In this document: positions 47,947 through 48,784 of the stretch, one piece after another
How the letters are laid out: every line of letters begins with the position of its first letter
Numbering within the stretch: position 1 is the stretch's first letter
NCBI RefSeq assembly: GCF_002356555.2
Contig: NZ_AP017372.2
Coordinates: forward strand, 558,001 to 622,000
Direction: 5' to 3'
Length of the DNA stretch: 64,000 nucleotides
DNA from: Halorhodospira halochloris
Lineage (GTDB): Bacteria > Pseudomonadota > Gammaproteobacteria > Nitrococcales > Halorhodospiraceae
Position numbers and translations under genes: made by a program
The notes under the pieces: generated by a model
Told to the model about the DNA's origin: nothing
Database searches by the model: none
Seen by the model: the letters and a program-made list of their open reading frames with translations, nothing else

Positions 47947-47984
47947 AAAAAAACCGGCCAACTTAGTTATAAAGTTGGCCGGTT
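47947..47984 (-). terminator. Rho-independent terminator of the light-harvesting operon
   Basis: Read on the minus strand, AACCGGCCAACTT and AAGTTGGCCGGTT flank a short loop, and the second arm is followed by a run of T. It lies about 63 bp downstream of the alpha gene stop, as expected for the end of a highly expressed operon. Confidence 0.88.
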
Positions 47985-48244: not shown

Positions 48245-48263
48245 GGTTAAGTCTCCTTAGCCG

Positions 48264-48524
48264 TTAGCCGATTACGGGCATTTGTTGAGCAGCGGCAGTT
48301 ACACTGCTGGCTTGCTCTTGAACCGAGGTGAGTGCGGAACGCACGTAATCCGGCGCATGATCCTCAAGGCGGTTACCGGCACGGCCTTGGTGGAACGGAC
48401 GCCAGGCGTAGGCCAAAGCGTTGGCGATCAGGCCGATCGACCAGTAAGCATGCATGCCGAGCATGTTCATCTCGTGGATCTCTTGGCACTCCTCGTCGGT
48501 GAGGCCCGTGCGAATGTCAGTCAT
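48264..48524 (-). CDS. Light-harvesting complex beta polypeptide, ligand His replaced by Asn
   Basis: This is an 86-residue antenna beta polypeptide, longer than the common 45-70. The family pattern is clear: a polar N-terminus with LTDEECQEIHEMN, a membrane helix, and AYAWRPF at its end. Aligning on WRPF, His17 matches the conserved upstream His, but the ligand His six residues before the Trp is Asn35 (LIANALAYAWRPF; the codon is AAC). An extra His25 is near the middle of the helix. A 42-residue polar tail follows Phe44. GGAGGT before the ATG indicates strong translation. Confidence 0.88.
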   Translation of the reverse strand: MTDIRTGLTDEECQEIHEMNMLGMHAYWSIGLIANALAYAWRPFHQGRAGNRLEDHAPDYVRSALTSVQEQASSVTAAAQQMPVIG

Positions 48525-48756
48525 GGTACTACCTCCGTATTGGACTTTATGTCATCCTCAGCCGTTATGCTCTTGAGACGCCGGCTTGGGATGTTACTGC
48601 AACCTCTGCTGCCTACATACCCGACCCGGGTTACTAACTCGAGCCGCGGAACCATCATTTATAAGCTCAGATCCTGCTTGACCGGTGCCTGTGGCTACCG
48701 GATCCCTTCCCTGGCGTCGAGCATAGGATGTTACGTAAAGGGGGGAGAACACAATA
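48525..48756. promoter_or_regulatory. Divergent control region of the light-harvesting operon and rplU leader
   Basis: This gene-free region lies upstream of the light-harvesting beta gene on one side and of the rplU leader on the other. It must contain the antenna promoter. No clear sigma-70 pair or PpsR/CrtJ-type TGT-N12-ACA palindrome could be fixed by eye. A TTGACC at 48678-48683 could be a -35 box facing rplU, with no convincing -10. Nothing else was recognised. Confidence 0.4.
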
Positions 48757-48784
48757 GAAGGTGCGCTTTCGCCGCACTTTTTTT
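48757..48784 (+). terminator. Intrinsic-terminator-like hairpin in the rplU leader
   Basis: On the plus strand AAGGTGCG pairs with CGCACTTT (one G-T pair) around a CTTTCGC loop, followed by seven or more T. No plus-strand gene ends nearby, the closest being about 1 kb upstream. It therefore ends either a short leader transcript of rplU (start 48909) or a small RNA. An attenuator role is plausible but inferred. Confidence 0.6.

Follow-up and report, generated by a model that had tools for sequence, protein, structure and literature searches.

A stand-alone pufBA pair of Halorhodospira halochloris encodes a near-identical copy of the LH1 beta chain with Asn at the bacteriochlorophyll-ligand position

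The 64,000-nucleotide stretch of the Halorhodospira halochloris genome analysed here (the window) contains a pufBA pair that stands by itself and has a terminator of its own, and the beta chain of this pair has Asn at the position of the usual bacteriochlorophyll (BChl)-binding His, His0. Our preferred reading, to which we assign a probability of roughly 0.7, is that this is an orphan Asn-type pufBA pair of the BChl b LH1 ring, with Asn0 ligating Mg and contributing to the 1016-1020 nm band. The preliminary description of this DNA allowed for the chain being new; it is in fact a known variant of the genus, the substitution, expression and cryo-EM structure of the Asn-for-His0 LH1 beta of Hlr. 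halochloris all having been published. Specifically, Asn replaces the beta-BChl-binding His0 in PufB1 and PufB2, which are expressed at levels comparable to PufB3 (PMC9146400), and, as relayed in the same paper, Kimura et al. (2021) hypothesised that the Asn amide oxygen is the axial ligand of BChl b and modulates the Qy energy. The original reading of the chain as an LH1 beta with altered ligation was right; the further idea that altered ligation shifts absorption is already the published hypothesis (PMC9146400). What our analysis adds, and what we regard as its useful remainder, is twofold: Asn0 genes are present in Hlr. abdelmalekii as well, and the stand-alone copy is conserved.

The window beta has both the N-terminal TDEE..E.H motif with His-18 and the C-terminal W-R-P-(W/F), and its histidines are located at -18 (H17), -10 (H25), +10 and +21; the His0 usual in LH1 betas is replaced by Asn35. 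His0 was not used to define an LH1 beta, the LH1 beta of 8K5O likewise having Asn there. As had been described from the letters alone, the codon of Asn35 (AAC, given at about 48420-48422 and read by us at 48422..48420) is located at the BChl-ligand position, His17 (-18) is kept and His25 (-10) is present in the helix, the partner alpha keeps His29, which is its His0, and 42 residues extend beyond WRPF (Table 1). Searching the PDB with the window beta at E values up to 0.1 yielded 43 sequences, which their depositors name as antenna chains, with the LH1 beta of Rba. sphaeroides matching the helix (E 4e-7). A Pfam search with the same chain yielded no match, and the chain was not placed in PF00556 (LHC).

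Table 1. Positions of the pufBA features in the window and of the related betas in Hlr. abdelmalekii
Feature	Position	Strand	Basis or remark
pufB paralogue, LH1 beta, 86 aa, Asn at His0	48264..48524	(-)	ORF, ATG start; 82/86 identity to 8K5O chain x, E 8.6e-54
Asn35 codon AAC, His0 position	48420..48422	(-)	frame set by WRPF and tblastn alignments of related betas
His25 (-10), probable B800 BChl b ligand	48450..48452	(-)	8K5O ligand per PMC12817894; position assigned by inference
His17 (-18), conserved in LH1 betas	48474..48476	(-)	sequence comparison
C-terminal extension, 42 residues after WRPF, and stop codon	48264..48392	(-)	sequence
pufB ribosome-binding site GGAGG	48532..48536	(-)	sequence; kept in 6/6 copies
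pufA paralogue, LH1 alpha, 65 aa	48047..48244	(-)	E 2.4e-42 to 8K5O chain w; PF00556 36.6 bits, cut-off 23
pufA ribosome-binding site GGAGA	48252..48256	(-)	sequence; AAGGAGA kept in 6/6 copies
Intrinsic terminator 3' of pufA, 13-bp stem then T run	47952..47984	(-)	-21.5 kcal/mol, z -5.7
Upstream element GTGCGGCGAAAGCGCACCTTCTATTGT, 27 bases, common to one pufBALMC operon	48751..48777	(-)	pattern search and alignment
Conserved CGTAACATCCTATG, possible core promoter	48722..48735	(-)	kept in four loci; promoter role inferred
Three Asn0 betas, Hlr. abdelmalekii DSM 2110	L033:3519-3776, L034:5998-6255, L035:5998-6255		each syntenic with a halochloris copy

The PDB entry 8K5O is the RC-LH1 of Hlr. 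halochloris (PMC12817894), and its chains x and w, each present in 16 copies, match the window beta and alpha, respectively (E values in Table 1). Chain x is the beta of the 656-kb locus, from which the window beta differs only at residues 79, 82, 84 and 85 (four of the last eight); chain w is the alpha of the 656-kb and 1788-kb loci, and the window alpha is near-identical to it. A near-identical chain, then, sits in the LH1 ring, and as judged by sequence identity the window copy would be a ring member as well. For 8K5O, the ligand of the B800 Mg has been reported as a beta1 His with the printed number 10, and that of the B820 Mg as an alpha1 His with the printed number 11 (PMC12817894). Since there is no His at sequence position 10 or 11 of these chains, and since His is present at -10 of the beta (H25) and -11 of the alpha (H18), we read the printed numbers as -10 and -11. 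His25, singled out as new in the preliminary description, is indeed there, but it is not unexplained: it matches the beta1 residue reported to ligate B800 BChl b. Taken together, the published structure and the sequences speak for a conventional role in the LH1 ring, with two additional BChl populations.

The Hlr. halochloris genome (one contig of 2,834,560 bases) has betas of the Asn type at 606 kb (the window copy), 656 kb and 1788 kb, and a beta of the His0 type at 859 kb. L, M and C subunit genes come after the copies at 656 kb and 1788 kb, and the 656-kb copy lies behind a gene with a product resembling a chlorophyllide reductase subunit; the window pair is isolated, flanked by a TPR-like gene on one side and by rplU-rpmA-obg on the other (all of these neighbours were named by eye). 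According to Tsukatani et al. (2019), as cited in PMC9788563, the species has two pufBALMC operons and two extra pufBA pairs, one of which is the divergent pufB3A3; the window pair is therefore the other. The three Asn-type loci have counterparts in Hlr. abdelmalekii: one beta (C12) has rplU, rpmA, obg, proB and sufS-like genes next to it, as does the window copy, another (C26) shares its upstream gene with the 656-kb copy and is followed by pufL, and the third (C63) has the neighbour genes of the 1788-kb copy and is likewise followed by pufL. Given the synteny of all three, the three-locus layout is older than the split of the two species. Separately, two nearly identical pufLMC sets are found in one genome (L010:6909-9861 and L011:6524-9458), and the PufL and PufM translations listed for the two appear to be the same, the start call of pufL excepted.

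In the window pufA starts 19 bases downstream of pufB and encodes an alpha with His29 (His0), His18 (-11) and Cys32 (+3). The 27-base upstream element, together with the downstream CGTMACATCCTATR, is found before the window pair, before the 1788-kb operon and before both abdelmalekii counterparts. Each BChl b genome has two exact sites and only two; as the pattern was built from these four sites, their match holds by construction, and what is informative is the lack of any further site even when three mismatches are allowed. No site was found in two red Halorhodospira genomes, and none with reversed-pattern controls. The element may well serve as a promoter: the orphan pair would be driven by a promoter resembling that of one operon and would probably add LH1 subunits beyond the supply from the reaction-centre operons. 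We also considered an RNA role for the element; its short hairpin is not clearly better than shuffles, and a DNA/promoter element is preferred. Some patches of the pufB leader of about 200 bases (48525-48720, (-)) are conserved between loci, ACGCCAnGGArGGGAwCCGG being one; searched against Rfam, the leader matched no RNA family, with nothing convincing at relaxed thresholds.

Between the six Asn-type copies dN is 0.01-0.06 and dS 0.1-1.1, with a dN/dS of about 0.02-0.2, all rough estimates from 258 bases. Asn0 is encoded by AAC in every one of the six, and the retention of the same codon in paralogous and orthologous genes with such dN and dS values argues that it is not there by chance. The window copy is the most silent-site-diverged in its genome (dS of about 0.55-0.58 versus its sisters; 36-37 third-position differences from the operon copies, versus 6 between the two operon copies), yet its protein is nearly identical, and these ratios place it under strong purifying selection. 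In the pufBA tree the copies cluster by species (100/99 support), not by locus, which, with three syntenic loci, points to gene conversion within each genome. The apparent exchange of sequence between copies would suit an explanation in which the window pair is a spare, little expressed and held close in sequence to the operon copies through gene conversion, as would the fact that the 8K5O model carries the 656-kb sequence. We consider this quite improbable: a spare copy is hard to square with a protein preserved in spite of the largest silent divergence, with a locus conserved in the sister species, and with the terminator and the upstream element that the pair has in common with a pufBALMC operon. 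A functional orphan within a three-copy Asn-type pufBA family, supplying an LH1 alpha-beta pair, is the reading that we favour.

The long tail is less unusual than had been supposed. The preliminary description held that betas normally end soon after RPW; this does not stand, as tails of 22-30 residues are common in the related betas read (29-30 residues after RPW in the other Halorhodospira LH1-type betas, 22-29 in other genomes). Several of the other Halorhodospira tails end in VTAAVxxIAPxAG or similar, reminiscent of the window VTAAAQQMPVIG; the window beta tail ends in AAAQQMPVIG. Nearly invariant across the Asn family save at its end, the 42-residue tail is, by sequence comparison, a lengthened version of an extension that is widespread in the genus. 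AlphaFold2 modelling of the beta alone (four sequences) gave a low-confidence model (mean pLDDT of 66) with helices at 10-45 and, in the tail, 59-80, and fold searches with this model returned only unrelated helical hairpins; we therefore make no claim on tail structure.

To establish the distribution of Asn0 and His-10, betas were read at both positions in loci from genus, family, order, phylum and class searches and from a genome collection, the phylum and class searches being samples. Asn0 and His-10 are combined in each of the six Asn-type genes of the two BChl b species, and the combination was seen in no further beta read; the remaining true betas all carry His0 and lack His at -10, a position that is approximate for the Burkholderiales betas, where some alignments are gapped. 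The comparison with the antenna genes of the same genome and of Halorhodospira, proposed when the chain was first described, accordingly finds the combination only in the two BChl b species, where the 42-residue tail accompanies it in 6/6 genes. This distribution bears directly on the published argument: the Asn hypothesis was rejected on the ground that Asn is absent from the LH1 beta of Hlr. abdelmalekii (WP_200191743.1, close to PufB3; PMC9146400). This protein is probably the product of the His0 locus (C3) of the Hlr. abdelmalekii genome, and with three further Asn0 beta genes in that genome the objection falls. The Asn hypothesis for extreme infrared absorption is thus open again, and can be tested in two species.

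Mechanistically, we suggest that alpha His29 and beta Asn35 hold the periplasmic B1020 pair, and that His25 (-10) would ligate the cytoplasmic-side B800 and alpha His18 (-11) the B820. Most probably the Mg of the beta-BChl b is coordinated by the amide oxygen of Asn0, either directly or with a water in between; the geometry that results would contribute to the band at 1016-1020 nm, much as an Asn does at the red chlorophyll pair of Lhca4 in plants. The exact coincidence of His0 loss with His-10 gain in the sequences examined could also suggest that the Asn0 site is vacant, the beta having lost its B1020 BChl and gained B800 through His-10. This we think very improbable, as published work takes the beta-BChl to be present, with Asn as a candidate ligand (PMC9146400), and a strong 1016-1020 nm band would be hard to explain with half the ring empty.

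A pigment held through Asn0, as we prefer, may still owe its band to something else. Because Asn0 and His-10 go together in these genes, sequence does not allow the red shift to be assigned to one or the other. The betas of Blastochloris have His0. Since absorption past 1000 nm is reached in this organism too, with the help of a gamma subunit (PMC9788563), it does not require Asn0, which weakens the role proposed for that residue; PufB3 with His0 is also expressed (PMC9146400), a further point against. In an Asn0 that is spectrally neutral, the Mg would be held by water or weakly, and the band would be set by BChl b, a gamma chain and electrostatics (alpha Cys+3, salt, pH): salt and pH shift the Qy band strongly (PMC9146400), the alpha Cys+3 is present in the copies here, and Blastochloris reaches its >1000 nm absorption with the gamma subunit. 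We nevertheless regard neutrality as unlikely, given that Asn is invariant in six genes of two species despite widely diverged synonymous sites, which suggests selection. Ligation of the B1020 beta-BChl by Asn0, and its contribution to the red shift, would be in line with this conservation and with the Lhca4 parallel.

Four comparisons place the window beta among known systems. It has 82 of 86 residues in common with 8K5O chain x, including Asn35, His25, His17 and the tail, and differs in four residues near the C-terminus, chain x being the 656-kb operon copy and not the window copy. The Hlr. abdelmalekii Asn betas resemble it in Asn0, His-10, the 42-residue tail, 92-95% identity and matching loci, but have Pro instead of Gln at residue 46; PMC9146400, where Asn is given as absent from the LH1 beta of that species, does not refer to them. 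PufB3 (859-kb locus; 8K5O chain 4 by similarity) is likewise a long-tailed LH1 beta of the same genome, but has His0, Phe at -10 and about 40% identity. Finally, at the Chl a603 site of Lhca4, as here, Asn takes the place of a ligand His in a low-energy pigment pair with strong coupling, and changing this Asn to His abolishes the red emission, an effect ascribed to pigment geometry (PMC11335733); Lhca4 belongs to an unrelated protein family and binds chlorophyll a, so that it serves as a parallel only. It is conceivable, though we hold it tentatively and with some doubt, that the gain of Asn0 and His-10 was a lineage-wide change of the BChl b Halorhodospira in which the Asn ligand puts the B1020 pair in a geometry mixing exciton and charge-transfer states, convergent with Lhca4.
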